The notes under the pieces: generated by a model
Seen by the model: only the letters and a program-made list of their open reading frames with translations
Database searches by the model: none
Told to the model about the DNA's origin: nothing
Made by a program: the position numbers and the translations under genes
Shown: in pieces, positions 15,227 through 32,319 of the stretch
Position numbering within the stretch: position 1 is the first letter of the stretch
Layout: every line of letters begins with the position of its first letter
DNA from: Paenibacillus rhizovicinus
GTDB lineage: Bacteria > Bacillota > Bacilli > Paenibacillales > Paenibacillaceae
Assembly (NCBI RefSeq): GCF_010365285.1
Contig: NZ_CP048286.1
Location: forward strand, 3,731,501 to 3,795,500
Direction: 5' to 3'
DNA length: 64,000 bases

Positions 15227-16366
15227 ATGAGAATACAAGCGATTCTGATCGTTTCCATCTTACTCGTATTCCTGACCTCCTGCTCGAATGCAACCGACAT
15301 GCGCGAGGAGCGGGAGAGCACGCTAAGCAAGCAGAAGGGCGATATCCTCGTGGGCGTGGCCTGGCCGTTCGCGGATCGCAACGAAGGGTTTCGCGAGGGG
15401 CTTGAGCTGGCCCTGGGCGAGATTAACAAGAAGGGCGTGCTGGGCAGCAAGATCCGGCTGGTGGAGAAGGACGACAAGTCTTCCGTTACGGACGGCCTGA
15501 CGATCGCCCAGTCGTTCGCGAACGATCCGGAGCTGACGGCCGTCATCGGCCACCGCAGCTCGGTCGTCACCGTGCCCGCAGCCAAAGTATACGATCATGC
15601 GGGGCTGCCGCTGATCGCGCCGTCTTCCACGGCTCCCGGGCTGACGGCAGCCGGGCTCGACCGCGTGTTCCGCACGATTCCCGACGATACGCGGCTCGGC
15701 AAGACCATGGCCGATTACGCCAATGCCAAGCATTATAAGCGCGTGGCGATTTTCTACACGAACGACGAGTATGGCCGCGGTTTGGCGAATGCCTTCGAGG
15801 ACGGAGCCAAGGCGGCGGGGATGCAGACGATCGACCGGCTGTCCGACTATAAAGACTTGAACGACCTGCGCCGCATCGCGGACAAATGGAAGCTGCTCGG
15901 CTGCGACGCGGTCTTCTTGGCCGAAGTGATGCCGGATGGGGCGGCGTTCGTCGCAGACCTGCGGAAGGCGGGGCTGGAAGTGCCCGTCATCGGCGGCGAC
16001 GGCCTGGATTCCGCCGCGCTGCCCGCTGCGGCGGGCGGAGCCGCCGAAGGAATGGTCGTCGCCTCGATCTTCAATCCGTTCGCGGCCGACGACACGGCGC
16101 AAGCGTTCGTGAAACAGTATGAAAGCACCTATAACGCGGAACCGGGCAAACTGGCGGCGCAGGGCTATGACGCCTTGAAATTGCTGGCGTATGCGCTGGA
16201 CAAGGCAGGCACGCGCGAGCCGTCGAAGCTGGCCAAGACGCTGAAGGAGACGAAAGGCTGGCAGGGCGCGTCCGGTCTCCATACCTTCGACGACAACGGC
16301 GACGTCAGCGACATGCCGATTGTATTGAAGCAGGTCGAAGGCGGCACGTTCCACTATCTCAATTAA
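15227..16366 (+). CDS. Branched-chain amino-acid-type solute-binding lipoprotein
   Basis: 379 residues, Peripla_BP_6 (LivJ/LivK-like) fold. A signal peptide ends in the lipobox LTSC (Cys about 19). The mature protein opens ILVGVAWPFADRNEGFREGLELALGEIN, with the family's VIGHRSSVVTVPAAKVYDHAGLPLIAPSS-like region split over two strands, and YGRGLANAFEDGAK. AAAGGAG lies nine bases before the ATG at 15227. No permease or ATPase of a Liv system is nearby, so it is an orphan receptor. Its stop is 14 bases before the HlyD-type gene, so it is the first gene of the NHLP export operon. It may sense or capture an amino acid, or act in immunity; neither can be shown. Confidence 0.87.
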   Translation: MRIQAILIVSILLVFLTSCSNATDMREERESTLSKQKGDILVGVAWPFADRNEGFREGLELALGEINKKGVLGSKIRLVEKDDKSSVTDGLTIAQSFANDPELTAVIGHRSSVVTVPAAKVYDHAGLPLIAPSSTAPGLTAAGLDRVFRTIPDDTRLGKTMADYANAKHYKRVAIFYTNDEYGRGLANAFEDGAKAAGMQTIDRLSDYKDLNDLRRIADKWKLLGCDAVFLAEVMPDGAAFVADLRKAGLEVPVIGGDGLDSAALPAAAGGAAEGMVVASIFNPFAADDTAQAFVKQYESTYNAEPGKLAAQGYDALKLLAYALDKAGTREPSKLAKTLKETKGWQGASGLHTFDDNGDVSDMPIVLKQVEGGTFHYLN

Positions 16367-16380
16367 AGGAGCACAAGCGG

Positions 16381-17346
16381 ATGAAAACCGACGTTTTTCG
16401 CAAGGTGTCCGTCGAACGGCTGTCTTCGCCGGAACAGCTGGACACGTTGATGAAGGTGACTTCCCCGAGAGGCTGGCTTGCGCTGGCCGCGCTCGGCGTG
16501 CTGCTCGCTGCCGCAATCGTCTGGGGTTTTGCAGGTACGATGAGTACGAAGATCACGTCGCAGGGCGTCTTGATACGACCGGGCGGCTTGCAAACGATCT
16601 TCGTCGACTCGGGCGGGACGCTCACCGATATCCGGGTGGTCGAGAACGATTACGTGCATAAAGGGGACGTGGTGGCCCGGGTCGAGCAGCCGGCGCTGCT
16701 CGCGAAGCTGGGACAGCTGAACCAATCGCTGCAGCTCGCGGAAGCCGGCTACCGGCAGAAGGCGTCTGCAGCCCTGGCCGCGCAGATCGAAGAACTGCGG
16801 GCGGCTATCGCCGCGGCGCAATTGGATTACGCCAACGCGTCCCGAATCGTCAGTCCATTGACCGGCCGCGTGCTGGAGGTGCGATCCAAAACGGGTTCAT
16901 CCATCGGCGCCGGCATGCCGCTGCTGACGGTCGAATCGGGCGACAAGCAGGTGAAAGCATTGCAGGCGGTCCTGTATCTGCCGCTGCAGCAAGGGAAGAC
17001 GATTCTTCCGGGCATGCTGGCGGAAATTTCGCCGAGCTCCGTCAACCGGGAAGAGTTCGGCTTCATCCGGGGCCGGGTGACGTCCGTCTCGGAGTTTCCG
17101 GTGACGGCGCAGTCGATGCTGCTCACGCTCGGCAACGAGGCGCTCGTGCAGGAGCTCGCCGGACGGGGGGCGGCATTGCTGGAAGTCCGCATCGAACCGA
17201 TTCCGGATCCGCGGACGGTCAGCGGCTTTAATTGGTCTACCGGAGAAGGGCCGCCGGTCGAAGTCGACAGCGGCACCCTGATGAACGCTTCGATTATCGT
17301 GAAGCAGCAGAAGCCGATCACGTCCGTTATTCCGCAGATCAAGTGA
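16381..17346 (+). CDS. NHLP-system secretion protein (HlyD-like adaptor)
   Basis: 321 residues. A short N-terminal cytoplasmic region ([21 protein letters not shown]), one membrane helix (about 32-50), then a biotinyl-lipoyl-like half ([25 protein letters not shown]), a shortened coiled hairpin and the second lipoyl half ([21 protein letters not shown]). This is the layout of the adaptor protein of NHLP bacteriocin export systems, shorter than classical HlyD. It links the export ABC proteins across the envelope; in a Gram-positive it would reach the wall side. AAAGGAG before the ATG, 14 bases after the solute-binding protein and 19 before the peptidase-ABC gene. Confidence 0.92.
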
Positions 17347-17365
17347 AAATGGAGCTGACAATCCG

Positions 17366-19615
17366 ATGGAAACGAAGGGGAGCAGAGAGAATAAGCCCGC
17401 CGCGCCAAAGCGGGTCAAGACGCCGACCGTTCTCCAGATGGAGGCCGTGGAGTGCGGCGCCGCCGCGCTGGCCATCGTGCTGGGCTACTTCGGGAGCCAT
17501 CTTCCGCTGGAAGAGCTGCGCGTAGAGTGCGGCGTCTCCAGGGACGGGAGCAAGGCGAACAACATTCTGAAGGCGGCGCGCAAATTCGGGTTGACCGCCA
17601 AGGGCTATAAGAAGAATCCGGAAGACCTTCGGAACATGACGTTTCCGTTGATCATTCATTGGAACTTCAACCATTTCCTCGTGCTGGAAGGCTTCAAGGG
17701 CGACCGCGTGTACTTGAACGATCCGGCCGCCGGGCCACGAATCGTATCCGCGGAGGAGTTCGATATGTCGTTCACGGGGGTGGTGCTGACCTTCGCGCCT
17801 TCGGAACAATACGTGCGTACAGGCGCGCAGACCGGGATGCTGAAGGCGCTCGGCAGCCGGCTGAAGGGCTCCGAGTCCGCGCTGGCCTACGTGGTGCTGG
17901 CGGGATTGTTCCTGGTCGTTCCGGGGCTGGTCGTACCGGTATTCACGAAAGTGCTGATCGACAATATATTGCTTGGCGGCCTGCATAATTGGCTCGTGCC
18001 GCTGCTGATCGGCATGGGGGCGACGGCGCTGATGCGCGCCGCGCTCACCTGGCTGCAGCGCTACTATTTGCTCCGGCTGGAAATGAAGTTCTCGCTGAGC
18101 ACGTCCGGACGTTTCTTCTGGCATGTGCTGCGGCTGCCGATCGAATTCTTCTCCCAGCGATACAGCGGGGAGATCGGTTCGAGGGTGATGATCAACGACC
18201 GCGTGGCCCAGCTGTTGTCGGGCGACCTGGCCGTAGCGATGCTGAACGCCGTCATGATCGCGTTCTATCTGCTGCTCATGCTGCAGTACAGCCTGCTGCT
18301 GACGGGCATCGCCTTGGCGGTGGCCCTGGCGAACGTGCTCTTCCTGCGCTTCGTATCCAAGCAGCGGGTAGACCAGAACATGCGGCTGCTGCAGGAATCG
18401 GGCAAAATGCAGGGCGTGTCCATGGGCGGCTTGCAGCTTATCGAAACGTTGAAATCAAGCGGGTCGGAGTCCGACTTCTTCTCGAAATGGTCGGGGTATC
18501 AGAGCAAACTGCTGCAGTCGCAGCAGCAGCTCGGCGCTTCGTCCGGCTTGCTGTCGGCCGTGCCCGGCCTGCTGTCGGGCATCAGCACGGCGGTCATTCT
18601 GTCCGTCGGCGGGCTGCAAGTCATGAACGGCGCCTTGACGGTCGGGATGCTCGTCGCCTTCCAAAGCTTGATGGCGAGCTTCATTGATCCGGTCAATCAG
18701 TTGGTGCAGCTGGGCAGTTCCTTGCAGGAAGCGCAGGGCGGCTTGAAACGGCTCGACGATGTACTGAACTATCGAATCGATGCCCAGCTTGCGGCGGCGC
18801 CCGGAGAATCATCGCGGGAATCAAGCCCAGGCGGGATGGAAACAGCGGCCGCGAAGGACGGGGCCGGACCGGTTGACGAGGCGCCGAACGCGAAGCTCGC
18901 GGGGTTCGTGGAGCTCCGGCAAGTGACGTTCGGTTATAACCGGCTGGAAGGCCCGCTGATCGAGAATTTCAGCCTGAAGCTGAAGCCGGGCACGCGCGTT
19001 GCGCTCGTGGGCGGCTCGGGCAGCGGGAAGTCGACGGTGGCGAAGCTGGTCGCCGGCATTTATGAGCCCTGGTCGGGGGAGATCGCATTCGACGGCGCAA
19101 CGCGCAGACAGCTTCCGCGGGAGCTCGTCGGCAACTCCGTAGCGGTCGTGGACCAGGAAATCCACCTCTTCGAAGGCACGATCAAAGACAATCTGTCCTT
19201 GTGGGATGCGACCATACCGGAGACGGAAATCGTGCGAGCGGCCAAGGATGCCCGCATCCACGACGATATCAGCTCCCGCAGCGGCGGCTACGATCATCCC
19301 ATCGAGGAGGGCGGCGGCAACTTCAGCGGCGGGCAGCGGCAGCGGCTGGAAATCGCCAGAGCGCTGGCCGGCAATCCGTCCGTGCTGATCCTCGACGAAG
19401 CGACGAGCGCGCTGGATCCGAAGACGGAACAGCTCGTGGACGCCAGCATCCGGAGGCGGGGCTGCACCTGCCTGATCGTCGCGCACCGGCTGAGCACCAT
19501 TCGCGATGCGGACGAGATCATCGTCATGCACCGGGGCAAAGTCACGGAACGGGGCAGTCACCAGGAATTGCTTGCGAAGAACGGTGCTTACGCCAGGCTG
19601 ATCCAGGAGCATTGA
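17366..19615 (+). CDS. NHLP-type peptidase-containing ABC exporter (C39 + permease + ATPase)
   Basis: 749 residues in three parts. The N-terminal C39 peptidase cuts leaders after Gly-Gly: Gln24 and Cys30 in [15 protein letters not shown], His103 in FNHFLVLEG, Asp119 in YLNDPAAG, so the set is complete. Six membrane helices follow (about 160-450). The ATPase carries Walker [10 protein letters not shown], signature FSGGQRQR, Walker [13 protein letters not shown] and the switch histidine in VAHRLSTI. It should both remove the leaders of the three precursors and export the cores. An acidic linker (about 480-520) separates permease and ATPase. TGGAG before the ATG. Confidence 0.95.
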
Positions 19616-19654
19616 CCTTACATCCTTATATCGGAACGGAAGGAGCGGAAGACC

Positions 19655-22579
19655 GTGAAACTGACGGAGGAACAACCCGAACTGCAGCGGCTGTTTGCGG
19701 CGCAGGGCGCCGAAATGGAGGCCGAGGGCAACCGGCCCTTGATCGTCCGCGACGAGGCCTATGTCTGGCTGGTGCAAACCGGCCATGCGGATGCGTTTGC
19801 CGTATCGCTGCACGAGGAGGAAGTGGTTCGTCAGCGGCGCTTCTTGTTCGGCGTCGAGCCGGGCCAGCTGCTATTCGGCTATTGCGGCGAGGATGACGGC
19901 CGGAACAGCTCGGCGGGCATCCTGATCGCCGGGTTGACAGGGACGCGGCTGCTTCGGATGGACAAGGCCGCTTTCGACCGCGCCTTGTCCGAATCGCCGC
20001 GCTTGCGCGAAGAAGCCGCCGTGCGGATCGATGCCTGGGTCCGCAATTGGTCCGTTGCTTTGGCGAAATCGGCACCGGCAGAGCAGGCGATTGAACTTGC
20101 GCCCGGCATGACGGCCGAGGCCGGGGAGCATGCGGTGCTGCGCACGGCCGCCTTAGTATGGGTTCGCTTGCAGGCTGGCAGGCTGCATTGGATGGGCAGC
20201 GGCGATCTTGCGGTCGACCGGCCGGGCCAGCTGTTCCCGCTGGCGGCAGCAAGCTGGCTGGTGGCGGAAGAACCGTCCAGCTTATCCGCCTGCGGCACGC
20301 TGGAGTGGCTGGGTCAAGACCCGGCGCTCGAAGGGTTGTCCGGCTATCACCGCTGCATTGCGGCCTGCTTGCGTCAGATGTACGTCTTCGAAGAGCGGTT
20401 CGAGCGGGAGCGGCTCAAACGCAAGACGGAACAAGACGAAGCCGTGATGGAGCGGGCGATTCGGCGACTAGCTTCCGTTACCGGGAGCGCGGACGGCGCG
20501 CAGGCGGCCGATCAGCGGACGGGCGACAGCCTGTATGCGGCTGCCCGGCTTGTGGGAGAAGCAGCCGGCGCCGACGTTAAACCGGCCAGTGCCGAGCGGA
20601 TGCGGAAGGCGCGCGATCCCGTCAGCGAAATCGCCAAAGCATCCGGTTTCCGCTCGCGTCAGGTCATGCTGAAGGACGACTGGTGGCGGACGGATAACGG
20701 ACCGCTGCTGTCTTTCATGGAAGAGGGCGGCCGCCCGGTCGCCCTGCTGCCGAACGGGGCGGCCGGTTACCGGCTGATCGACCCCGAGAACGGCACGGAA
20801 ACGATCGTGACGGAGGAGCTGGCGGGGAGGCTCGAGACCGCGGCGCATATGTTCTATCGGCCGTTCCCGACGCATCCGCTGTCGGTCTGGGACATTCTCA
20901 AATTCGGCTCCCACCGGACGATCCGGAAGGATTTCGCCAGGGTGCTCCTGCTCGGCATCGCAAGCGGACTGCTCGGGATGTTCGTTCCGATCGCGAACGG
21001 CATCTTGTTCGATACCGTCATTCCGGCAGCCGATCAAGGGCCGCTGCTGCAGATCGGCCTCATTCTGCTCTCCATGACGGCGGCTACGGCCTTGTTCGAA
21101 ATTACGCGCTCGATGGCGATTCTGCGCATCGAAGGGAAGATGGACGGCTCCATCCAGGCGGCGGTTTGGGATCGGCTGCTGAATATGCCGGCGTCGTTCT
21201 TCCGTCAGTTTACGGCAGGCGACTTGTCGAGCAGGGCCAACAGCATCGGCACCATTCGGAAACTGCTGTCCGGCGTGGCGGTAACGGCGATCTTCTCGGG
21301 CCTGTTCTCCAGCTTCAACTTCTTCCTGCTGTTTCATTACGACGTGAAGCTGGCGATTACGGCCGCGTTTCTCGTGCTCGTTCCGATGCTGGTCACCGTT
21401 GGCGTCGGCATCCTGCAGGTTCGCAAGCAGCGCGTGCTTCTTCGCGTGCAGGGCAGGCTCGCGGGAACCGTCCTGCAGATCATCGACGGCATCTCGAAGT
21501 TCCGGATGGCGGGCGCGGAGAAGCGGGCCTTCTTCTTATGGGCCAAGCTGTTCGGCGAGATGAAACAAACCTCGTTCCAAGCGAGGACAATCAGCAATAT
21601 CCATGCCGTATTCAATGCATTCTTCCCTATTATTACCTCGGTCGTCCTGTTTTATTTGGTCGGGACGAACGCGCAGAGCTTAAGCGCGGGGCAGTTTATC
21701 GCGTTCTTCTCGGCCTTCTCTTCCTTCCTGGGGGCAATGCTCGCCATGTCGACCGCCATCGTATCCATGATCAACATCGTGCCGCTGTTCGAGCGCACGA
21801 AGCCGATTCTGCATACGGTGCCCGAAGTGAACGAGGCGATGGACGATCCGGGCGAGCTCTCGGGCGGCATTGAAGTCCGGCACGTTAACTTCCGTTACGC
21901 CGCGGAGCAGCCGTTCGTGCTGAACGATCTGTCGTTGACCATCCGTCCGGGCGAATTCGTCGCGCTGGTCGGCGCATCGGGATGCGGCAAGTCCTCCTTG
22001 CTGCGGCTGCTGCTCGGATTCGAGAAAGCGGAGGCAGGCTCGATCTTCTATGACGGGCAGGACGTGAAGTCGCTCGATATCCGCAACGTCCGCAATCAGC
22101 TCGGCGTGGTGCTGCAGCACGGCAAGGTCATGGCAGGCGATATTTACGCCAACATTGTCGGTTCGTCTAACCTCACGCATGAGGATGCTTGGGAAGCCGC
22201 TCGCATGGCGGGGCTCGACCAGGACATCCAGCAGATGCCGATGGGCATGCACACCGTCATCTCCGAAGGCGGCGGCACGTTGTCGGGCGGCCAGCGGCAG
22301 CGCCTGCTTATTGCGCGGGCACTCGCCAGAAGGCCGAAGATTCTCTTCTTCGACGAGGCGACGAGCGCGCTGGACAATCGTACGCAGGCCGTCGTCAGCG
22401 AAAGCCTCGAGAAGCTGCGCGCGACGCGCGTCGTGATCGCCCACCGCCTGAGCACGATCATGAACGCGGACCGGATCTTCGTCCTGGACAAAGGCCGGCT
22501 GGTTCAAGCGGGAACCTACGCGGATTTGATGGAGCAGGAAGGTTTGTTCGCGGAGCTCGCCAAGCGGCAGCTGGCTTAA
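19655..22579 (+). CDS. NHLP-type ABC exporter, second permease/ATPase
   Basis: 974 residues, the usual partner of the C39 exporter in NHLP loci. It has a long N-terminal region without peptidase (about 1-400, several Ala/Arg/Glu-rich stretches, with a cyclic-nucleotide-like fold plausible), then six membrane helices (about 430-720), and an ATPase with [43 protein letters not shown] and IAHRLSTI. GTG start with AAGGAG nine bases before it. With the peptidase-ABC protein it probably forms a heteromeric exporter; what the N-terminal region binds is not known. Confidence 0.92.
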   Translation: MKLTEEQPELQRLFAAQGAEMEAEGNRPLIVRDEAYVWLVQTGHADAFAVSLHEEEVVRQRRFLFGVEPGQLLFGYCGEDDGRNSSAGILIAGLTGTRLLRMDKAAFDRALSESPRLREEAAVRIDAWVRNWSVALAKSAPAEQAIELAPGMTAEAGEHAVLRTAALVWVRLQAGRLHWMGSGDLAVDRPGQLFPLAAASWLVAEEPSSLSACGTLEWLGQDPALEGLSGYHRCIAACLRQMYVFEERFERERLKRKTEQDEAVMERAIRRLASVTGSADGAQAADQRTGDSLYAAARLVGEAAGADVKPASAERMRKARDPVSEIAKASGFRSRQVMLKDDWWRTDNGPLLSFMEEGGRPVALLPNGAAGYRLIDPENGTETIVTEELAGRLETAAHMFYRPFPTHPLSVWDILKFGSHRTIRKDFARVLLLGIASGLLGMFVPIANGILFDTVIPAADQGPLLQIGLILLSMTAATALFEITRSMAILRIEGKMDGSIQAAVWDRLLNMPASFFRQFTAGDLSSRANSIGTIRKLLSGVAVTAIFSGLFSSFNFFLLFHYDVKLAITAAFLVLVPMLVTVGVGILQVRKQRVLLRVQGRLAGTVLQIIDGISKFRMAGAEKRAFFLWAKLFGEMKQTSFQARTISNIHAVFNAFFPIITSVVLFYLVGTNAQSLSAGQFIAFFSAFSSFLGAMLAMSTAIVSMINIVPLFERTKPILHTVPEVNEAMDDPGELSGGIEVRHVNFRYAAEQPFVLNDLSLTIRPGEFVALVGASGCGKSSLLRLLLGFEKAEAGSIFYDGQDVKSLDIRNVRNQLGVVLQHGKVMAGDIYANIVGSSNLTHEDAWEAARMAGLDQDIQQMPMGMHTVISEGGGTLSGGQRQRLLIARALARRPKILFFDEATSALDNRTQAVVSESLEKLRATRVVIAHRLSTIMNADRIFVLDKGRLVQAGTYADLMEQEGLFAELAKRQLA

Positions 22580-22664
22580 GAACCGAAGGCGGTATCGGGC
22601 CGCTGCCTGGCGATCCATCGTGTTTGCCAGGCGGATGATCAATCCATTTTAGGAGGAATTATCG

Positions 22665-23036
22665 ATGAGTTGGACCCAGGAAACGTTCCAGGAAGCAGTA
22701 AGGAAAGTAAGTGAACGGGCGGCGGTCGACGCGGCCTTCAGAAGCCTGTGCGTCAGCGACATCCATGCGGCGATTCAACAGGAGAGCGGCATCGAAGTGC
22801 CGTCAAGCTTCAAGATCGGCGTGCTCGATCCTTCGGCGAATCAGCTCAATATCGTCATCCCTCCGGTCGCGCTGGAAGAAGGCGAGCTGCAAGAAGACGA
22901 GCTGGAGAGCGTAGCGGGCGGAGTCAAAGGAACGCTGGCCGACGGCTCCGGTGAAATCCCGAGAGACAGCGTGGGGATCATTCCCGAGCTGCCCGGTTCG
23001 GGCGGCATGATTTTTTTCGGCAGCTTTCCCAAGTAA
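22665..23036 (+). CDS. NHLP-leader RiPP precursor 1
   Basis: 123 residues. The leader (1-86) is of the nitrile-hydratase-like type (NHLP): MSWTQETFQEAVRKV, RSLCVSDIHAAIQQ, PSSFKIGVLD, ending ELESVAGG. Cleavage after Gly86 frees a 37-residue core starting VKGTLADGSG and ending FFGSFPK, rich in Gly and Pro, without Cys. Lysines are at 88 and at the C-terminus. AGGAGG lies nine bases before the ATG. It is the least similar of the three precursors in the core. There is no lanthipeptide, YcaO, radical-SAM or epimerase gene nearby, so the cores should not be thioether or azole peptides. See the GNAT and ketosynthase entries for the proposed modification. Confidence 0.92.
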   Translation: MSWTQETFQEAVRKVSERAAVDAAFRSLCVSDIHAAIQQESGIEVPSSFKIGVLDPSANQLNIVIPPVALEEGELQEDELESVAGGVKGTLADGSGEIPRDSVGIIPELPGSGGMIFFGSFPK

Positions 23037-23238
23037 ACCGTGAATCATCGCGGCATTTCGGAGTTGACCTGAATGAGGTGCAATGGGCTTGCGGGCGAGT
23101 CGGAGATGATCGGATTCGCCCCGCAATGCGGGCTGCCGCGGAGGATTCCTATTCATTGGCGGCAGCCATAACGAGCGTTCATGCTCCCGGCCACTCGCCG
23201 GGTTTATGATAAATATGATTTATTAGGAGGCGTCTTTG

Positions 23239-23649: not shown

Positions 23650-23676
23650 TCCATTATTACAAAGCGGAGGTAGCTT

Positions 23677-24090: not shown

Positions 24091-24150
24091 TCCGTTGACG
24101 TCCGTGCCGGCGAATTTGCCATTGTTTTGACAATATGGCCTGGCTGCGGA

Positions 24151-24206
24151 GAATCCCGAGAGATCGGGGTTCTTCCCGCAAGCGGCGTATGCGCCGCTGC
24201 CGGGAA
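24151..24206 (+). promoter_or_regulatory. Two consecutive hairpins after the precursor genes
   Basis: First stem GAATCCCGA/TCGGGGTTC (24151-24172, one G-U pair). The second is TTCCCG...CGGGAA (24173-24206) with inner AGCGGCG/CGCCGCT. Neither has a T-run, so read-through is expected. Such structures after precursor genes often reduce, but do not stop, transcription into downstream enzymes, or protect the 3' end of the abundant precursor mRNA. Confidence 0.6.
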
Positions 24207-24318
24207 AGATTGAACCGCTCCATTAACTCGGACCATAATTGGCGATTCGGTGCGCTTGAGCGTGCGTGAACGTTCTTCCACATATATGCATTTACTCGGA
24301 CGGCAGGAGGCTGAAGTC

Positions 24319-25641
24319 GTGATCCGGAAACGCATTTCCTTCTCTCTTCACTGGCTGCGGTCGATATGGGCCATTATCGCGGCCATCGGCGCCGGTGTCA
24401 TGGCAGGCTTGTATCAGCCTCGTTTTGCCGGGGAGCTGATTCCTTACGGGAACTTATATTTATCCTTTCTGAAAATGTGCGTCATCCCGATCATGGTCAC
24501 CGCCATCGTATCCAGCGTCGGGCGGCTGTTCATGTCGAAGGGGACGGGCAAGGTGCTGCGGCGGATGATCCTCGTCTTTCTGGCCGGACTGCTCTTGGCC
24601 GGCATTCTTGGACTAGGAGCGGGCCTGCTTGGCAAGCCCGGCGAAGGCTTCTCTTCGAATCAGCGTACGGTGCTGGGGCAGGAGGTCTTGGACAGGGAGC
24701 CGGCTGCCGAATCGGCGGATGCCGCAGCATCGGGGAACGGACTGCTCCAATTCGTGTTCGACCTCATTCCGTCCAACATCTTCATTGCGCTCGGACAGGG
24801 CAACAGCCTGCAAATCCTCTTCTTCTCCGTTGTGGTCGGCATTGCCGTCGGGCTGCTCTCGGTTCACTCGGGCGATCAATTCCTCTTCATGACGGATCTG
24901 CTGTTCAAAGCCTTTCAACGCATTATCTCATGGGCGATGTACGTGCTGCCGTTCGGGATGTTCTGCATGATGGCCGGCCAGATCGCCGGCGCGGGGGCAG
25001 ACCTGCTGCTGGCCATGGTCAAATACATCGCCTGCATCTATGGCGCCTGCCTGGTGCTGCTGCTGGCCGGCATCTGGATCGTGTCGGCTGCGTTAAGGAG
25101 GCCGCTTCTATCCGTCGTACGCGGCTTGAAGGAACCGCTCTGGATCGCATTCGGCACGCAGAACAGCATCGCCACGATGCCGTACGTGCTGGAAACGCTG
25201 AAGAGCCGATTCAGGCTGAATGCGAATACGGTCAATCTGGTCGTGCCGCTCGGCATCGTGCTATGCCGGTACAGCATGGTGCTGACGTATACGACGGGCA
25301 TCGTGTTCATTGCGCAATTATACGGCGTATCGTTAGGGCCGCAAGGGCTGCTGGTCGCGTTGTTCGGTTCGATTCTGACGGCTGTCGCCGGTGCGGGGTC
25401 TCCGGGCATCGTGTCCATCGCCATGATCTCGCTGATCGCGAATCCGCTGCATCTTCCGTACGCCACGGGGGTCATTCTGTTGATGGCCGTGAATCCCATT
25501 ATCGACCCCGGCGTGACGACGGCGAGCGTCATGATGAACTGCGTCTCGACCGTCATGATTGCCGGAGCGGAGGAAGATGCGGAAGGAACTCGATTCGACG
25601 AGTCGGCTAAGGAGCGCGGCAGTGCTTTGCAAACGGAATAA
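24319..25641 (+). CDS. Dicarboxylate/amino-acid:cation symporter
   Basis: 440 residues, DAACS (GltP/DctA) family. It has eight or so membrane segments, the LKMCVIPIMVTAIVSSVGRL signature of helix 3, the motif FGTQNSIATMPYVLETLKS (corresponding to the family's re-entrant loop with serines), and VNPIIDPGVTT near the end. The usual NMDGT motif reads VVPLGIVLCRYSM here, so sodium and substrate binding may differ from standard glutamate or dicarboxylate carriers. GTG start with AGGAGG eight bases upstream. It sits between the precursors and the acyl genes, so it may supply an amino acid or acid or serve export or immunity. Confidence 0.87.
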   Translation: MIRKRISFSLHWLRSIWAIIAAIGAGVMAGLYQPRFAGELIPYGNLYLSFLKMCVIPIMVTAIVSSVGRLFMSKGTGKVLRRMILVFLAGLLLAGILGLGAGLLGKPGEGFSSNQRTVLGQEVLDREPAAESADAAASGNGLLQFVFDLIPSNIFIALGQGNSLQILFFSVVVGIAVGLLSVHSGDQFLFMTDLLFKAFQRIISWAMYVLPFGMFCMMAGQIAGAGADLLLAMVKYIACIYGACLVLLLAGIWIVSAALRRPLLSVVRGLKEPLWIAFGTQNSIATMPYVLETLKSRFRLNANTVNLVVPLGIVLCRYSMVLTYTTGIVFIAQLYGVSLGPQGLLVALFGSILTAVAGAGSPGIVSIAMISLIANPLHLPYATGVILLMAVNPIIDPGVTTASVMMNCVSTVMIAGAEEDAEGTRFDESAKERGSALQTE

Positions 25642-25656
25642 GCGAGGGGGATGTTC

Positions 25657-26589
25657 ATGTTAATCGTCAAGCGGTTGGACCCAGCGGCGTGCATGCCCTA
25701 TGAGACGCTGACTTATCATTACGCGCGTTCGCTGCTGTACCGGGAGGATGGAGGCCGGACGAGCTTCGCCGTCGGGGCGGAATGGACGGAATGGTCGGAA
25801 GGGACAAGCAAAGCGAAGGCGGTCGGCCTGGTCGTCATTCATTTCCGGGAGGACGGCGGGAACGCGGAGGTCGTCTCGGTCTTCGTCAAAGCGGCCTATC
25901 GCCGGCAAGGCATCGGGACGGCGCTGCTTCGCGAAGCGGAACGGATTCTCCGGGACATGCCATGCGAGCGGCTGTCGTTTACGTATTATTCGGGCAAGGC
26001 CATTACGCCTGCCGTGGAAGCTTTTCTGCATCGCGAAGGCTGGTCTGAACCCGTTTCGGAGGGAAAAGTGTACCAGACCGACAAACGCATCGCGGATGCG
26101 GCTTGGATTCGGAAGACCGCCATGCCGAAGGGCATGCGTTCCTTCTATTGGCACGAGATCGGCCCGGAGGAGAAGGCGCGCCTGCTGGAAGCGGAGGGCA
26201 GCCTGTACCCGGCTTTTCTCTCGCCGTTCAAATCCAAGCTGCCGGCGGAGGAGAGCAACAGCCTCGGCCTGCGGCTTCACGGGGAAACGGTGGGCTGGTG
26301 CATGACCTATCGCATCGCCGACGATACCGTGCTCTACGACAGCGTTTATGTAACGCCGGAGCTGCGCTTGTCCGGCTGTGCATTCATGCTGATCGCGCAA
26401 TCGATCTCCATCCAGCTGGAACGCGGCATCCCCAAAGCGATCTTCGCCGTGAATAACGAAGCGCCGTTCATGCGCAAAATGCTGGATCGCTGGCTTATGC
26501 CTTATGCGACGGGCGTTTCGGAGCGACGGGCGGCGTATAAAACAATCATGACGACAAGGGGGCAGGCGCATGGCGGCAGCATTGGATAG
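25657..26589 (+). CDS. Tandem-GNAT acyltransferase, candidate peptide N-acyltransferase
   Basis: About 310 residues with two GNAT folds. Domain 1 has the acyl-donor-binding motif A (EVVSVFVKAAYRRQGIGTALL, with Arg-Arg-Gln-Gly-Ile-Gly near 82-87). Domain 2 (about 150-300) keeps the strand pattern DSVYVTPELRLSGCAFMLIA but not the pyrophosphate loop. GNATs transfer acyl groups from CoA or ACP to amines; ribosomal lipopeptides of the selidamide and goadvionin types use GNAT enzymes to acylate the peptide. Here it lies between NHLP precursors and an ACP/ketosynthase set and overlaps the ketosynthase by 20 bases. I infer transfer of an ACP-bound acyl chain to core Lys88. ATG 25651 also possible; 25657 fits GAGGGGG better. 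Confidence 0.82.
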   Translation: MLIVKRLDPAACMPYETLTYHYARSLLYREDGGRTSFAVGAEWTEWSEGTSKAKAVGLVVIHFREDGGNAEVVSVFVKAAYRRQGIGTALLREAERILRDMPCERLSFTYYSGKAITPAVEAFLHREGWSEPVSEGKVYQTDKRIADAAWIRKTAMPKGMRSFYWHEIGPEEKARLLEAEGSLYPAFLSPFKSKLPAEESNSLGLRLHGETVGWCMTYRIADDTVLYDSVYVTPELRLSGCAFMLIAQSISIQLERGIPKAIFAVNNEAPFMRKMLDRWLMPYATGVSERRAAYKTIMTTRGQAHGGSIG

Positions 26590-28897
26590 ACGGCGCGTCG
26601 CGATTACCGGCATGGGCATTCTCGGCGCCCTCGGCGATACCTTCGAAGACGTGCTATCCCGCATGCGGGAAGGCGAGACGGGCATCGGACCGATCGGGCG
26701 GTTTCCGACGGCCCGGCTGCACAGCGGGATCGGCGCCGAGCTGAGAACGGACAAGGCGGCGACGTTCTTCACGGAGGCGCAGCGGCAGAAGTACGATCTC
26801 TGCGCGCAGTACGCGATCATGGCCGCGGATCAAGCGCTTCGGGACAGCGGGCTGCCTCGGGGGCCGGCGAAAGGAACGCGGATGGGCGCCGCGCTCGGCA
26901 CGTGCAACGGCGGCATATTATCGCTGGAAGCGCAATGGACGGTAACGGAGCTGGATGACGAGCGGACGGGGCGCTATCCGTTCTACCAGCAGGGGGACGA
27001 CGTTGCGGATTATTTCCGGCTGAACGGACCCGTAACGACCATCCATACGGCTTGCGCGGCGAGCGGCAATGCCATCGGCTACGCGTACGACATGATTCGC
27101 TGGGGCTATGCGGATACCATGCTGGCCGGCGGTTCCGATCCTTTATCGCACGCGGTGTATGCCGGCTTCAACGTGCTGCGGGCATTAAATCCCGCGCCGG
27201 CTTCCCCGTTCGCCAGCCATTTCGGACTGAGCTTGGGCGAAGGAGCGGCGTTCGTCGTGCTGGAGCCGCTGGAGCGCGCGCTGGAACGGGGGGCGACGAT
27301 CTATGCGGAGCTGTGCGGCTACGGGCTGAGCAACGATGCCTACCATGAGACGGCGCCCGACCCGGAAGGCCGGGGAATCGGGACGGCTGCCGCGATGGCT
27401 TTGCGCCATTCGGGTGTATCCCCATCGCAAATCGAATACATCAATGCGCACGGAACGGGTACGCAGGCTAACGATCAAGCGGAGATCAAAGGGCTGCGCA
27501 GCGTATTCGGGGAACGTTTGGACGGCATTCCGCTCAGCTCGAGCAAAGCGTATTTCGGCCATGCGCTCGGGGCTGCGGCCGTCATTGAATTGACCACCTC
27601 GCTGTATGCGATCCGACATGGCCTGCTGCCGGCGACGCTGCATTACGACGAGCCGAGGGCAGGCTGCGAAGGGCTGAACATCATCGCCAACGATATGGCC
27701 GAGGGCAAGCCGCGCTTCATCATGAACAACAATTCGGCATTCGGCGGCCATAATTCGTCCATCGTGGCCAAGACAAGCTTGGCTGACGATGAAGCGGCGG
27801 TCGTGTCTGCGTATAACCCGAAACGAAGGATCGGCATCGTCGGCATCGGTGCCGTTATCGGCAGCAGCGTGCGGCAAGGGAGCGTCTCCGACCCAATTCG
27901 CCGCGCCGACCAAGACGCGGCAGAGCTGCCGAAGGCGGGGGCATGCACGTTCTCGTTGAAGGCGTTCGATCCAAGCCGGTACGAACGGCGGATGAACCGG
28001 TTGTGCCAATTCAGCATCGGCGCGGTACGGACGGCGATCGCGGATGCGGGCTGGGCTGACGGCGGGCAGGCGCTCGACGGCCCGCCCGAGCGGGCGATCG
28101 GCTTTATCTGCGGCACCTCGCGGGGAAGCACCGATAGTATCGGCAAGTTTCTGAACAGCGTGTTCATGAACGGGCCGGAATTCGCGAGCAGCATTTATTT
28201 TCCGTATACGGTCATCAACTCGATCGCCGGCAAAACGGCGGAGAAGCTGGCGCTCGGCGGCTTCAGCAGCTCGCTCAGCAGCGGCGGGGCAGAAGGCATC
28301 ATGGCCGCGGCTTATGCCTGCGGCAGCATTCGCAGCGGCGTGCACGACCGGTTCCTTATCGCCGCCGGCGAGGAACGGTCGGGCCTCTCGGAGCAGATCG
28401 ACCGGGCCAAAGGCTTGACGGAGAGCCGCTTCCGCCCGCTCGAGGGCAGCGTTTGCCTGGCTTTGACGGATTTGGATGTCGCCTTGCAGGGCGGGCAGCC
28501 GGTCATGGCGGAACTGCAAGGCTTCGGCATGGCTTATGGAGAAGGTGCGCTGGCAGCCGCCATCGATGGCGCGCTGACGGAAGCGGGATTGCTGCCGGAG
28601 CAGGTCGAAGGCGTGCTGCTCGACGGTGCGGGCCGTCCGGGCGAGTGGGAAGCTCAGCTGCAGATCGTGCGCGCGCGGCTTGCGGGACCGGACATCCTGA
28701 TCGAAAGCGTGAACGAGCGATACGGGTACGGCGAATCGGTCGGTTCCATGCTGGCGCTCGAAGCTGCCGCCGAATGGGTGAAACCCGGCGCGATGCGGCA
28801 TGTGCTGGCCATAGGCATATCGGTGAACGGCAATGCGGCTGCCGCCGTAATCGGGGCGGTCGACAAACAATCAGATGAAGCGGAGGAGATCGCATGA
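26570..28897 (+). CDS. Ketosynthase fused to a dead ketosynthase (chain-length-factor-like)
   Basis: 775 residues. The first half (1-410) is a FabF-type beta-ketoacyl-ACP synthase with the full triad: Cys162 in TIHTACAASG, His294 in NAHGTGTQAND, Lys326 and His331 in SSSKAYFGHALG. The second half (about 418-765) starts again with RRIGIVGIGAVIG but has Ser568 at the Cys position (SSSLSSGGAEG), DGAGRPG in place of the first His motif and GYGESVGS in place of the second, so it cannot condense. In type II PKS systems a separate dead KS acts as chain-length factor; here both are one chain. There is no acyltransferase domain. Overlaps the GNAT gene by 20 bases and the ACP gene by ATGA, so translation is coupled. 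Confidence 0.9.
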   Translation: MAAALDRRRVAITGMGILGALGDTFEDVLSRMREGETGIGPIGRFPTARLHSGIGAELRTDKAATFFTEAQRQKYDLCAQYAIMAADQALRDSGLPRGPAKGTRMGAALGTCNGGILSLEAQWTVTELDDERTGRYPFYQQGDDVADYFRLNGPVTTIHTACAASGNAIGYAYDMIRWGYADTMLAGGSDPLSHAVYAGFNVLRALNPAPASPFASHFGLSLGEGAAFVVLEPLERALERGATIYAELCGYGLSNDAYHETAPDPEGRGIGTAAAMALRHSGVSPSQIEYINAHGTGTQANDQAEIKGLRSVFGERLDGIPLSSSKAYFGHALGAAAVIELTTSLYAIRHGLLPATLHYDEPRAGCEGLNIIANDMAEGKPRFIMNNNSAFGGHNSSIVAKTSLADDEAAVVSAYNPKRRIGIVGIGAVIGSSVRQGSVSDPIRRADQDAAELPKAGACTFSLKAFDPSRYERRMNRLCQFSIGAVRTAIADAGWADGGQALDGPPERAIGFICGTSRGSTDSIGKFLNSVFMNGPEFASSIYFPYTVINSIAGKTAEKLALGGFSSSLSSGGAEGIMAAAYACGSIRSGVHDRFLIAAGEERSGLSEQIDRAKGLTESRFRPLEGSVCLALTDLDVALQGGQPVMAELQGFGMAYGEGALAAAIDGALTEAGLLPEQVEGVLLDGAGRPGEWEAQLQIVRARLAGPDILIESVNERYGYGESVGSMLALEAAAEWVKPGAMRHVLAIGISVNGNAAAAVIGAVDKQSDEAEEIA

Positions 28898-29217
28898 AGA
28901 ACTGGAGCACGATTTCATTGGAGGAGATCAAGGAGACGGTGAAGCAGAAGCTGCTGATCGAGCGGCTGGAGCTGGAAGACGTGACGGCGGCGGACATCGA
29001 TGACGACATGCCTTTGTTCGGAGAAGGCCTCGGGCTCGATTCGGTCGAAGCGTTCGAGATCATGGTGGGGCTGGAGGTCGTGTTCGGCGTCATGGTCGAG
29101 GGCATTGCCGCGGATCAATTGAAGGAGCATTTGTACAATGCGTCTTCCATCGCCAAGTTCATCGAAGCCAGCGTCCGGGAGCAGGCCGAGCTTCGGCCGG
29201 CGGCCGGAAGCCTATGA
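28894..29217 (+). CDS. Acyl carrier protein
   Basis: 107 residues. The phosphopantetheine site is Ser50 in EGLGLDSVEAFEIM, preceded by DIDDDMPLF and followed by helix III, as in ACPs of FAS and type II PKS. It is longer than FabC-type AcpP (about 77) by N- and C-terminal extensions. The start overlaps the ketosynthase stop (ATGA), and its stop overlaps the reductase start. It should be charged by the AcpS encoded four genes on and hold the growing chain for the ketosynthase, reductase and GNAT. Confidence 0.93.
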   Translation: MKNWSTISLEEIKETVKQKLLIERLELEDVTAADIDDDMPLFGEGLGLDSVEAFEIMVGLEVVFGVMVEGIAADQLKEHLYNASSIAKFIEASVREQAELRPAAGSL

Positions 29218-29978
29218 ACAATGAAGACGGCGCGCTGACGCTTCAGAATCGGGTTGCCGTCATAACGGGGGCTACGCGGGGCATCGGAAGAGCGGTGTGG
29301 GAACGGTTCGCGGAAGCGGGAGCGACCGTTATCGGCGTCTATGCCAGGAGCGGGGAGATTGCGGCGAAGCTGGAGGCGGAGATGGCGTCGAGGTCGATTG
29401 CCGGCCGCTTCTATCGGGGCTCGGTGGATGACCCGGTCTTCGTAAGAACGCTAATGCGGCAGGTGAAGGCGCAGTTCGGGCGCATCGATATCCTGGTGAA
29501 CAATGCCGGCATCACGCGGGATAATTTGGCCATGCGGATGACCGTCGAAGAATGGGATGCCGTGCTGCATACGAATTTGCAGGGCACCTTGCTGTGCGCC
29601 GCGGAAGCAATCCCGTACATGCGGCAGCAGGGCGGCGGCGCTGTCATTAATGTCGTTTCCGTCTCCGGCCTCCATGGCAGGGAAGCGCAGGTAAACTACA
29701 GCACGGCCAAAGGTGCCGTGGTCGGCCTGACGAAGCTGCTGGCCCGGCGTCATGCGCGGGAAGGCATCCGCGTCAACGCGGTAGCGCCCGGCATGATCGC
29801 CACCGAGATGACGGAGCAGATCCCTCCTGCCAAGCTGGATAATTTCCTCCATCACACGAATCTGGGACGCCAAGGCACGGCCGACGAGATCGCGGCCGCG
29901 ATCCTTCCGCTAGCCAGCGGTGCATCGGGTTATCTGTCCGGGCAGGTATTGCGAGTGGACGGAGGTTTTCTGCGATGA
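29214..29978 (+). CDS. 3-oxoacyl-ACP reductase (FabG-type SDR)
   Basis: 254 residues. The NADPH-binding loop ITGATRGIGRA is at 18-27, NNAG at 96-99, and the catalytic Ser149, Tyr162 and Lys166 lie in VSVSG and NYSTAK. It ends LRVDGGF like FabG. It would reduce the beta-keto group made by the upstream ketosynthase. Starts inside the ACP stop (ATGA) and overlaps the next SDR in the same way. No dehydratase or enoyl reductase is in the locus, so either the chain stays beta-hydroxy or housekeeping FabZ/FabI act in trans. Confidence 0.93.
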   Translation: MNNEDGALTLQNRVAVITGATRGIGRAVWERFAEAGATVIGVYARSGEIAAKLEAEMASRSIAGRFYRGSVDDPVFVRTLMRQVKAQFGRIDILVNNAGITRDNLAMRMTVEEWDAVLHTNLQGTLLCAAEAIPYMRQQGGGAVINVVSVSGLHGREAQVNYSTAKGAVVGLTKLLARRHAREGIRVNAVAPGMIATEMTEQIPPAKLDNFLHHTNLGRQGTADEIAAAILPLASGASGYLSGQVLRVDGGFLR

Positions 29979-30727
29979 ATGCTGCGATGAATAAGGCGGT
30001 CTTGATTACGCCATCCGGCAAGCCGTTCGAGCGGGAAGTGCTGAACGGTCTGCTGGAGCGGGGCTGTTCGGTTGCTTTGCCGGTCGCGGATGCCGAAGAG
30101 GCGAATGGGTATATGGAAGGATTGAGCGAATCGAACCGCTCGCGGTTCATTCCGTTGATCGGCGCCTCGGACGACGAGGCGGGAATCGTGGAAACGGTCG
30201 GCCGGGCCATTCGTCATATGGGCGGACTGGATATGCTGATCCACGGCGCGGCGATCGTAGACGAAGACGCTTGTTACGACGCCGATCCCGCAGCCTTCGG
30301 CCGGCAGACGTCGGCCGCGCTTCGCTCCCGCATGCTCTACAGCCGTGCGGCTGCCGCGCATATGGCTAGGGATAAGAAGGGGCATATCGCCTTCCTCCTG
30401 CTCGCGGACAGTCTGTATTACGCGGACTATCCGTCTTCGCCGGTCTTGAACCATGGCACGATCGCCATGATGAAGACGCTGGCGAAGGAGCTGTCGCCGT
30501 TCCGAATCGCGGTCAATGCCGTTACGTGCGGCTGTTATGCGGATCCGGAGGAGCGGACGGATCGGAAAGCGCTGAAGCAGAAGCTGGAAATCCATGCGCT
30601 GAAGCCGTACTTGCCGCAGCCGCAGGAGCTGGTTGCCGCTTCGCTCGACTGGCTGCTCCATGTACCCGAGCGTCTCGTAAGCGGGCAGAACATGCATATC
30701 GGGGCGGGGATGGATACCTTTATTTAA
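29975..30727 (+). CDS. Catalytically degenerate SDR (ketoreductase-like partner)
   Basis: 250 residues that align with the FabG-type neighbour over the whole length (LIHGAAIV for NNAG, RIAVNAVTCG for RVNAVAPG, SGQNMHIGAGMD for SGQVLRVDGG). The glycine-rich loop is lost (LITPSGKPFEREV), and at the Tyr and Lys positions of YxxxK my alignment puts Ser and Asn (YPSSPVLNHGTIAM). It should not bind NADPH normally or reduce a ketone. It overlaps the active reductase gene by ATGA, so a structural partner in a mixed tetramer is the simplest idea. A changed activity cannot be excluded. Confidence 0.8.
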   Translation: MNAAMNKAVLITPSGKPFEREVLNGLLERGCSVALPVADAEEANGYMEGLSESNRSRFIPLIGASDDEAGIVETVGRAIRHMGGLDMLIHGAAIVDEDACYDADPAAFGRQTSAALRSRMLYSRAAAAHMARDKKGHIAFLLLADSLYYADYPSSPVLNHGTIAMMKTLAKELSPFRIAVNAVTCGCYADPEERTDRKALKQKLEIHALKPYLPQPQELVAASLDWLLHVPERLVSGQNMHIGAGMDTFI

Positions 30728-30753
30728 CAGGTGCGGAAAGGGAGGCGTGACAG

Positions 30754-31143
30754 GTGATTCTAGGTGTCGGCATGGATCTCGTGGACATCGACCGGTTCCA
30801 TAAGATGGCGAACGAGAATGAGTGGCTGTCGGAGCGCTTGTTGACGGACAACGAAAATATGGCTTTTATGGCGCTGACCCATCCGCATCGCCGCGCGGAA
30901 TGGCTCGCCGGCCGTTTTGCGGCTAAGGAAGCGCTCATGAAGGCGCTCGGCTTGGCGCTGCCGAAGGGGATCGGCATGCGGGATATCGAGGTGCTGCCCG
31001 ATCACTGGGGCAAACCGGTGATCGTGCTGTCTCAGGCCGTCCACAGGCAAATGAACGTCCCGTACGTCTGCCATCTTAGCATTACTCATACGGCAACGAC
31101 TGCTGGGGCGGTCGTCGTCGTCGAGCAGAGGATGGACGTATGA
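30754..31143 (+). CDS. acpS: Holo-ACP synthase (4'-phosphopantetheinyl transferase)
   Basis: 129 residues, normal for AcpS. The metal-binding Asp lies in GVGMDLVDIDRF, Glu in AGRFAAKEALMKAL, and HLSITHTATTAGAVVVV closes the fold. It transfers phosphopantetheine from CoA to the ACP serine. GTG start with AAGGGAGG eight bases before it. A dedicated copy inside the operon argues that the local ACP is the intended partner and that the operon forms a self-sufficient acyl-building unit. Its stop overlaps the next start by ATGA. Confidence 0.93.
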   Translation: MILGVGMDLVDIDRFHKMANENEWLSERLLTDNENMAFMALTHPHRRAEWLAGRFAAKEALMKALGLALPKGIGMRDIEVLPDHWGKPVIVLSQAVHRQMNVPYVCHLSITHTATTAGAVVVVEQRMDV

Positions 31144-32081
31144 TCGCAGGGAGAGGGGGGCAGCCGGAGCTTGTTGCGGGTAAGATGCGCTATCCGTTGG
31201 CGTGCCTGCTGCTGTGCGGACTGATGATCCTGACGGCCTGCAGCCCAAGCAGCGCTTCGAACAGTCTCTCCGCTGCGAAGGAAGAGACGAATCCGTTCGT
31301 CGTGACGACGGCGAAGCGATCGGTTACGGATGCGGAACTGGCGGCCTTGCCTCCGGGGATGAGAGCCATTCATGAGCGGGGGAAGCTGCGGGTCGCCATG
31401 CCTTCAGCCGACCGCAAGCCGTTCTTTTACCGCGATGACGGCGGTCGTCTCGCGGGAAGCGACGTGGAGCTGGCGGCGGATGTCGCGGCCCAAATGGGAG
31501 TGGATGTCGAATACGTGCGCACGGCATCTTCCTTCGATGAAGTCGTGAACCAAGTGGCTTCCGGGCAGGCGGACATCGCCTTGTCGAAGCTCAGCGCAAC
31601 GCTGCCCAGGGCGCAGAAGGTGATGTTCTCGAATCCGTACCTGACGCTGCATCAGGGCCTCCTGCTGAACCGGCTTGCCCTGGCCCGGCTAGGCTCCGCG
31701 AGCGCGGACCCGATGGAGCATCTCCGTCAAACGGATATTCGAATCGGCGTCATCGCCGGCACATCGTATGTCAGCTATGCGGGCCTGTTGTTTCCGAAAG
31801 CCCGGATCGTCCAGTTTCCGACTCCCCAGGAAGCGATGAATGCAGTGCTCCGGGGAGAGGTTGCGGCGATCTATTACGACGAGCTGCAATTGAAGCAGCT
31901 GATTACGGACAATCCGGGCGACTCCATCGACCTGCAGCTGCACATCATGCAGGATCAGGTCGATCTGATCGCGGTGGCCGTGCCGCCGGACGATGCGCAG
32001 CTATTGGCGTGGATGAACTTGTATTTGCAAACCAATCAGGCGCGCATCGACAGCCTGTTGAAGTATTACGCAGTGAAATGA
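31140..32081 (+). CDS. Polar amino-acid-type solute-binding lipoprotein (orphan)
   Basis: 313 residues. A lipobox LTAC lies about 20 residues after the internal Met at 31185, so either ATG 31140 (overlaps acpS) or 31185 may be used. The mature part is SBP_bac_3: GKLRVAMPSADRKPFFYRDDGG, GSDVELAADVAAQMGVDVEYV, QADIALSKLSATLPRAQKV, GVIAGTSY. No amino-acid permease or ATPase follows; the operon ends here. A second orphan binding protein at the far end of the NHLP locus from the one at 15227. A role in sensing, immunity or amino-acid capture is possible. Confidence 0.85.
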   Translation: MIAGRGGQPELVAGKMRYPLACLLLCGLMILTACSPSSASNSLSAAKEETNPFVVTTAKRSVTDAELAALPPGMRAIHERGKLRVAMPSADRKPFFYRDDGGRLAGSDVELAADVAAQMGVDVEYVRTASSFDEVVNQVASGQADIALSKLSATLPRAQKVMFSNPYLTLHQGLLLNRLALARLGSASADPMEHLRQTDIRIGVIAGTSYVSYAGLLFPKARIVQFPTPQEAMNAVLRGEVAAIYYDELQLKQLITDNPGDSIDLQLHIMQDQVDLIAVAVPPDDAQLLAWMNLYLQTNQARIDSLLKYYAVK

Positions 32082-32319
32082 GCATACGCCGTATGGAGAG
32101 GGCATCCCGGTTTTACCTATCCGAGAACAACGTTTGGTTGTGCGAGTGCGTACCGTGGTCTTATATATCCGTCGAGGAAGGCACCTAGCGTCGAGGTATC
32201 TTTCTTTCTGTCCGTTTACCACGCATTCGTTTAGCCCAAGCAGCCCAAGCAAAACGCGCGCCGTTTGAATTTGCTACCATTACGGAACTAGGTGAAGTGA
32301 CCGATCGGAGGGGGATCTC

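Follow-up and report, generated by a model that had tools for sequence, protein, structure and literature searches.

A candidate ribosomal lipopeptide pathway with its own acyl-building genes in Paenibacillus rhizovicinus

Where would the acyl chain of a ribosomal lipopeptide come from if the genes to build it lay beside those of the peptide? Lipidation largely decides the behaviour of lipopeptide antibiotics and, to our knowledge, known ribosomal lipopeptides either obtain their fatty acid from cellular metabolism or rely on large synthases. The question is raised by a 64,000-nucleotide stretch of Paenibacillus rhizovicinus (assembly GCF_010365285.1, contig NZ_CP048286.1, positions 3,731,501 to 3,795,500 of the forward strand; hereafter the window, whose internal coordinates we use throughout). 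Fifteen genes run there on one strand (15227-32081, +) and, as far as genes allow prediction, they probably encode a pathway for ribosomally synthesized and post-translationally modified peptides (RiPPs) that become lipopeptides with the help of the pathway's own acyl builder. Comparative genomics strongly supports the association proposed in an initial annotation of this DNA, namely that of NHLP precursor peptides with a GNAT acyltransferase and a dedicated acyl-building set. As to the products, we lean by a little towards linear, lanthionine-free RiPP lipopeptides whose chain would be made by a dedicated type II synthase of two active/dead enzyme pairs and joined to the lysine at core position 2 (Lys2) by the tandem GNAT, i.e. 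a type II polyketide-RiPP hybrid.

We scanned sixteen proteins (15227-33018) with Pfam and NCBIfam models, and the matches confirm that precursors, C39/ABC export set, GNAT, ketosynthase with dead ketosynthase, acyl carrier protein, ketoreductase, dead ketoreductase and AcpS follow each other in the order first described. The run reads as follows.

15227-16366, +, Peripla_BP_6 substrate-binding protein (SBP6), lipoprotein-like (Pfam; lipobox by inspection)
16381-17346, +, NHLP HlyD-type adaptor (TIGR03794, 324.6 bits; cut-off 156.2)
17366-19615, +, NHLP C39 peptidase-ABC exporter (ABC1), predicted to cleave after GG and to export (TIGR03796, 1108.2 bits; cut-off 853.3; Peptidase_C39)
19655-22579, +, second NHLP ABC subunit (ABC2; TIGR03797, 961.5 bits; cut-off 709.4)
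22665-23036, +, precursor 1, 86-residue leader and 37-residue core VKGTLADG... (TIGR03793, 46.9 bits; Lys2 codon 22926-22928)
23239-23649, +, precursor 2, 86-residue leader and 50-residue core SKSGATDFF... (TIGR03793, 49.7 bits; Lys2 codon 23500-23502)
23677-24090, +, precursor 3, 86-residue leader and 51-residue core SKAGANDFF... (TIGR03793, 49.7 bits; Lys2 codon 23938-23940)
24250-25641, +, SDF-family (dicarboxylate/glutamate-type) symporter (PF00375, 228 bits)
25651-26589, +, tandem GNAT, proposed peptide lysine acyltransferase (Pfam scan; AlphaFold2 model)
26570-28897, +, ketosynthase (KS, residues ~1-405, Cys-His-His intact) fused to a dead KS half resembling a chain-length factor (CLF) (domain scans, alignment)
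28894-29217, +, dedicated acyl carrier protein (ACP), GLGLDSVEA motif (PF00550; alignment of 23)
29214-29978, +, ketoreductase (KR), FabG-type, TGxxxGxG and Ser-Tyr-Lys intact (domain scans, alignment)
29975-30727, +, catalytically dead KR paralogue (KRd), without TGxxxGxG and SX12YxxxK (domain scans, alignment)
30754-31143, +, AcpS-type phosphopantetheinyl transferase (TIGR00516, 91.1 bits)
31140-32081, +, SBP_bac_3 substrate-binding protein (SBP3), lipoprotein-like, end of the conserved run (PF00497; lipobox by inspection)

The first gene list thus named only genes that are there, but it omitted the symporter between the precursors and the GNAT; two binding proteins also bracket the run. Its remark that stops and starts mostly overlap applies from the GNAT onward (4 bases at KS/ACP, ACP/KR, KR/KRd and AcpS/SBP3, 20 bases at GNAT/KS), but gaps of 9 and 26 bases separate the symporter from the GNAT and KRd from AcpS.

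The operon is not a chance assembly, since its gene order, which the initial annotation had proposed to seek in other genomes, recurs at 18 further loci. Fifteen of these (L035-L049) lie in genomes of the family and all have SBP6, HlyD, ABC1, ABC2, precursor, GNAT, KS fusion, ACP, KR and KRd in the order of the window. A contig scan with the GNAT alignment, keyed on two peptide motifs only so that more distant holders could escape it, gave 13 loci, all in Paenibacillaceae (eleven in Paenibacillus or unclassified Paenibacillaceae, two in Cohnella); ten were already in the family set and the three new ones, in a Paenibacillus metagenome-assembled genome (L107), P. eucommiae (L108) and P. oenotherae (L109), show the full order. 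In 394 family genomes the GNAT search gave 33 at E <= 1e-15 and 16, the window included, at E <= 4.2e-56, and the KS fusion search gave 37 at E <= 1e-75 and 18 at 696 bits or more; these 18 are the same 16 GNAT genomes (at least 723 bits) plus G063 and G117. Within these 394 genomes every close GNAT is accompanied by the KS set, and every KS of the NHLP-linked clade by the GNAT. The KS proteins of the 19 NHLP-linked loci form one clade (support 98/97), as do their GNATs (100/97). The NHLP C39 exporter itself is present in 24 of the 394 genomes, with 25 copies in all (TIGR03796, E <= 1e-250). The cassette adjoins one exporter copy in 16 of these 24 and the close GNAT is found in none of the other 370 (Fisher test, 6e-23, a value that is overstated because related sequences are counted as independent). 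No other companion of NHLP export is as common in this family as the cassette.

What would such a cassette build? We aligned its enzymes from 23 loci, i.e. the 19 NHLP-linked ones and four other cassettes. The KS keeps Cys-His-His in 23/23 sequences and the second half lacks all three residues in 23/23, with Gly in place of the catalytic Cys in the alignment of the two halves. In the model of the fusion (predicted local distance difference test score, pLDDT, 72.1; predicted template modelling score, pTM, 0.83), the secondary structure suggests two KS-like halves. The KR retains TGxxxGxG and SX12YxxxK in 23/23 loci; KRd has lost both in 23/23 and is conserved nonetheless. Two active/dead pairs are thus kept together, KR/KRd being analogous to KS/CLF. 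The features of a type II polyketide synthase that are present are a KS with a CLF-like partner, here fused to it, an ACP and a KR. The description of the set as complete and FAS-like (fatty acid synthase-like) has to be dropped: no dehydratase, enoyl reductase, malonyl transferase or ketosynthase III (KSIII) was named among the sixteen scanned proteins, and the only FabZ and the only FabD matches of the 7.5-Mb genome lie outside the operon. The genome also has a second AcpS match elsewhere (two in all). That the cassette is the primary fatty acid synthase was considered and rejected, given that two further FabF-like genes, as well as the FabZ and FabD matches, lie elsewhere in the genome and that the set lacks most functions of such a synthase.

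In the pathway we propose, AcpS would activate the dedicated ACP, the fused KS/dead KS would add malonyl units to an acyl starter on this carrier, and the KR/KRd pair would reduce the beta-keto group. The functions lacking from the set mean that the chain cannot be predicted from it. With no dehydratase in the set, the simplest guess is a 3-hydroxyacyl or polyhydroxylated chain, unless the housekeeping FabZ assists. A possible variant of the same pathway, which we hold to be less likely than not, has the chain iterated into a polyene or a long saturated acyl group with a borrowed FabZ or enoyl reductase, rather than left as a short 3-hydroxyacyl. KS/CLF pairs belong to iterative type II systems, and the KS with its dead half resembles them; FabZ is there in the genome; and more distant fused KS (33-45% identical) lie in other Bacilli clusters, several of them equipped with their own FabD-like and FabZ-like proteins (named by inspection). 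That FabZ acts here is however a supposition, and the relatives offer little room for a dehydratase: at the 18 loci related to the window, no stretch between recognised genes, the KS frame aside, is longer than 440 bases, so that hidden dehydratases are unlikely; only the 436-base gap of L107 might hold a separate one of normal length. A KS half that is 45% identical to that of the window (L086, genome G278) lies in a different cluster, beside two ABC half-transporters and a 2195-residue protein, with no NHLP match.

The KS set is not confined to NHLP loci. The initial annotation had pointed to NHLP-free genomes with the acyl genes as the place where contrary evidence might be found. The search, run in part, found KS fusion, ACP, KR and KRd without an NHLP exporter or GNAT match in ~20 kb in 2 of 394 family genomes (L084, L085) and 2 of 398 class genomes (L129, L130). 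Their KS are ~50% identical to the NHLP-linked ones and form a separate group next to that clade (88/77). All four cassettes have CrtI-like oxidoreductases beside them, and the neighbours of L084 and L085 also include KSIII, a glycosyltransferase, sugar genes and an FkbH-like protein (recognised by inspection; Pfam gave none). They look like parts of other polyketide clusters, and the set can therefore be regarded as a chain builder joinable to different partners; this supports its role as acyl builder and leaves the link with NHLP peptides unrefuted.

These cassettes do bear on another explanation, according to which the GNAT uses an ordinary acyl group of primary metabolism and KS, ACP and KR make something else, e.g. 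a separate small molecule. There is a precedent, as the acyl group of phaeornamide comes from primary metabolism (PMC9505594), and the same family has NHLP loci with LanM and GNAT and without a KS set (L050, L053). We nevertheless think this explanation unlikely, because the close GNAT and the clade KS always occur together in the 394 family genomes, their genes overlap, and the scans of the run revealed no further genes for tailoring or export.

If the set builds a chain, the peptide should offer a place for it. The cores of 37, 50 and 51 residues predicted at the outset agree with the leaders, which finish in AGG in all three window precursors. These leaders score just under the TIGR03793 cut-off of 50.9 bits, in contrast to the exporter models, which are far above theirs. 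Using five leader queries we collected 30 precursors at the 19 cassette loci. Lysine is at core position 2 in 28 of them, and is the only core lysine in 15 of these 28; residue 1 is Ser in 28 cores and Val in two. The cores are of two types, SK[SQDA]GA[NTSE]xFF... and Gly/Pro-rich (VKGT..., SKTGFPEG...). As controls we took 16 GG-leader precursors, partly picked by eye, from eight exporter loci without cassette (three each from L050, L053 and L191, two each from L190 and L192, one each from L193, L194 and L196). Four more leader pieces of L053 without GG were excluded, the L190 and L194 leaders appear dissimilar to those of the window, and the ninth such locus, L195, ends at a contig edge and contributed none. 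Lys2 was found in none of the 16 (Fisher test on the precursors, 1.5e-10, which counts related sequences as independent and is thus overstated and descriptive only); counted by locus, it is present at 19/19 with the cassette and 0/8 without it. The lysine at this position fits acylation by the GNAT. Several cores of the cassette-free L191, L192 and L193 are lysine-rich and repeat-like (e.g. KKGANDAIDKG), in contrast to the lysine-poor cores beside the cassette. The TIGR03793 leader model, for its part, matches 209 of 245 family genomes, against 24 of 394 for the exporter. Among 30 of the matching loci, those read on the plus strand are short proteins without a GG end, left out of the controls, and apparently represent a common relative rather than a precursor of this kind.

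In the proposed pathway the tandem GNAT would transfer the finished acyl group to the epsilon-amine of Lys2 in the leader-bearing precursor, after which the C39-ABC/ABC2/HlyD exporter would cut the leader after GG and export linear, cysteine-free lipopeptides. The C39 domain of the exporter is the sole peptidase recognised among the scanned operon proteins; the alpha-amine of the core should therefore be blocked in the cytosol, leaving the Lys side chain to the GNAT. This reasoning, together with Lys2 in 28/30 cores and in 0/16 controls, makes it quite improbable that the acyl group is placed on the core alpha-amine as in lipolanthines, even though residue 1 is conserved too and microvionin, goadvionins and lipoavitides are N-terminally lipidated (PMC13060382).

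Among solved structures, the best matches to the model of the window GNAT (AlphaFold2, pLDDT 82.9) are tandem GNATs; one of them, 2wpx, belongs to clavulanic acid biosynthesis (Z 19.9, root-mean-square deviation 3.2, 274 aligned residues). A P-loop [RQ]xxGx[GA] is present in the C-terminal domain of 19/19 cassette GNATs and in the N-terminal domain of 15/19, a pattern that points to the C-terminal domain as the binding site of the acyl donor. For NpuN, a predicted tandem GNAT that acylates Lys1 of a Nif11-leader peptide, the P-loop is reported to be clear in the N-terminal domain only (PMC13060382). In a tree with a midpoint root and without characterised selidamide GNATs, the cassette GNATs fall with two NHLP-LanM and three cyanobacterial GNATs on one side of a split (support 91/91), opposite 12 further tandem GNATs from the family. 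The closest plasmid GNAT (L198, Microcoleus vaginatus PCC 9802, plasmid CP146623.1, 4842-12843; 35.5% identity) is also tandem, split over two frames. It stands in a row which, named by eye in an unannotated record, contains an HlyD-like protein, a short GG precursor with a core starting in Lys, a radical-SAM-like protein, the tandem GNAT and a C39 exporter, and which looks like a peptide-export cluster. Plasmid relatives in Nostoc ATCC 53789 (L197) and Gloeothece PCC 7822 (L199) do not look RiPP-like, their tandem-GNAT part lying within TIGR03032 proteins beside cadherin-like or immunoglobulin-like proteins, an adhesin-like neighbourhood. Most tandem GNATs among the matches in the PDB are titled acetyltransferases, and that the GNAT merely protects the producer by acetylation, the peptides being otherwise unmodified or differently modified, is nonetheless very doubtful, since it would leave unexplained both the KS, ACP, KR and AcpS genes in the same overlapping run and the restriction of Lys2 to cassette loci.

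How much of this is new? It is already known that GNATs lipidate ribosomal peptides and that NHLP leaders occur with GNATs. The selidamides (phaeornamide, kamptornamide) and the nostolysamides resemble our loci in pairing a precursor with an NHLP or Nif11 leader with a GNAT, and the selidamide traits found here are an NHLP-type leader (slightly under the cut-off), a GNAT at 19/19 loci and the tandem fold. Traits of proteusin/NHLP RiPPs are also present, namely a leader ending in GG (its score slightly under the cut-off) and an NHLM-type C39 exporter. The described selidamides and nostolysamides are acylated on a Lys or Orn side chain (core Lys1 in nostolysamide) and have a lanthionine synthetase, whereas here side-chain acylation is only predicted, at Lys2, no lanthionine synthetase lies in the run and Cys is found in 0/30 cores. 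The peptidase-bearing transporter of phaeornamide is proposed to cleave at a Gly motif. Phaeornamide carries 3-hydroxydecanoate (PMC9505594), and its acyl source in primary metabolism contrasts with the dedicated KS/ACP/KR set found here.

Lipolanthines (microvionin, goadvionins, nocaviogua) are another point of comparison, since they too join a polyketide or fatty acid chain to a ribosomal peptide, by means of a GNAT in the case of microvionin. The goadvionin lipid is attached by a GNAT as well, and the goadvionin synthase is of type I. Unlike the predicted products, lipolanthines belong to the class III lanthipeptides, contain avionin and are lipidated at the N-terminus; no class III lanthionine synthetase domain was found among the sixteen scanned proteins. 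Type II polyketide-like clusters of Bacilli share the fused KS/dead KS, ACP and KR, and four of them (L084, L085, L129, L130) also KRd, but they have CrtI-like oxidoreductases and no adjoining NHLP exporter or tandem GNAT. The cassette-free loci L191-L193 share the layout of the window, including AcpS in L191, but their cores lack Lys2. As judged from the sequences, the pathway would differ from those known by its dedicated type II set with dead partners, by the lack of lanthionine machinery and core Cys, and by the conserved Lys2. Searches of open-licence PMC papers brought up no title or abstract opening in which NHLP precursors are combined with a ketosynthase set.

Several observations weigh against a dedicated lipopeptide pathway. 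AcpS is found at only 7 of the 19 cassette loci. It is also kept at the cassette-free L191, so it need not serve this ACP alone. The scanned set is without the dehydratase, enoyl reductase, malonyl transferase and KSIII noted above. Two of the 30 precursors lack Lys2 (L036_8990 and L040_7980, each an additional precursor at a locus where Lys2 cores occur as well). GNATs stand without a KS set at the exporter loci L050 and L053, with LanM, and L196. Finally, the best GNAT matches outside the cassette clade are ~24-36% identical, characterised peptide-acylating GNATs not being among those compared. If the pathway exists as proposed, its compact set of KS pair, ACP, KR pair and GNAT would be a small, portable lipidation module for gene-encoded peptides, and the 19 loci offer a ready system in which to put it to the test, with one conserved lysine, dead partners at known positions and cassette-free relatives as controls.

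These relatives are nine exporter copies (L050, L053, L190-L196). L050 and L053 have a LanM-type lanthionine synthetase (DUF4135 and LANC_like) and a GNAT 26-27% identical to that of the window, a selidamide-like layout, and L196 has a divergent GNAT (24% identical) on the opposite strand. L191, L192 and L193 show SBP6, HlyD, ABC1, ABC2, precursors, SDF symporter and SBP3 in window order, with no GNAT, KS, ACP, KR or KRd match. The AcpS of L191 (genome G020, 12920-13351) is 51% identical to that of the window and lies between symporter and SBP3 with no adjoining ACP match; it may be left over from a cassette that was lost, or else serve some other client.

The symporter and the two binding proteins would go with the exporter and not with acylation. 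SBP6 is present at 19/19 loci with the cassette and, in whole or in part, at 9/9 exporter loci without it, and the symporter at 18/19 cassette loci. A place for symporter and binding proteins in the acyl pathway, e.g. in the import of a dicarboxylate starter, was not our first choice, because symporter and SBP3 are both kept at 5/9 cassette-free exporter loci (L190-L193, L195); neither was found at the cassette-free L050, L053, L194 and L196, nor at the cassette locus L035. The symporter and the two orphan binding proteins travel with the NHLP exporters of the family; immunity, sensing and uptake are candidate roles for these three proteins.

In the 64-kb window, Rfam at gathering threshold and a tRNA scan gave no match, promoter-like sites are as frequent as expected by chance (5 against 5.0) and the number of terminator-like sites is close to the expected one (19 against 15.4). 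A gene for a probable regulator lies upstream of the operon.

11070-15032, +, large protein ending in a LuxR-type helix-turn-helix (by inspection), a probable regulator

A homologue of this protein lies directly upstream of SBP6 at L035 and L036.

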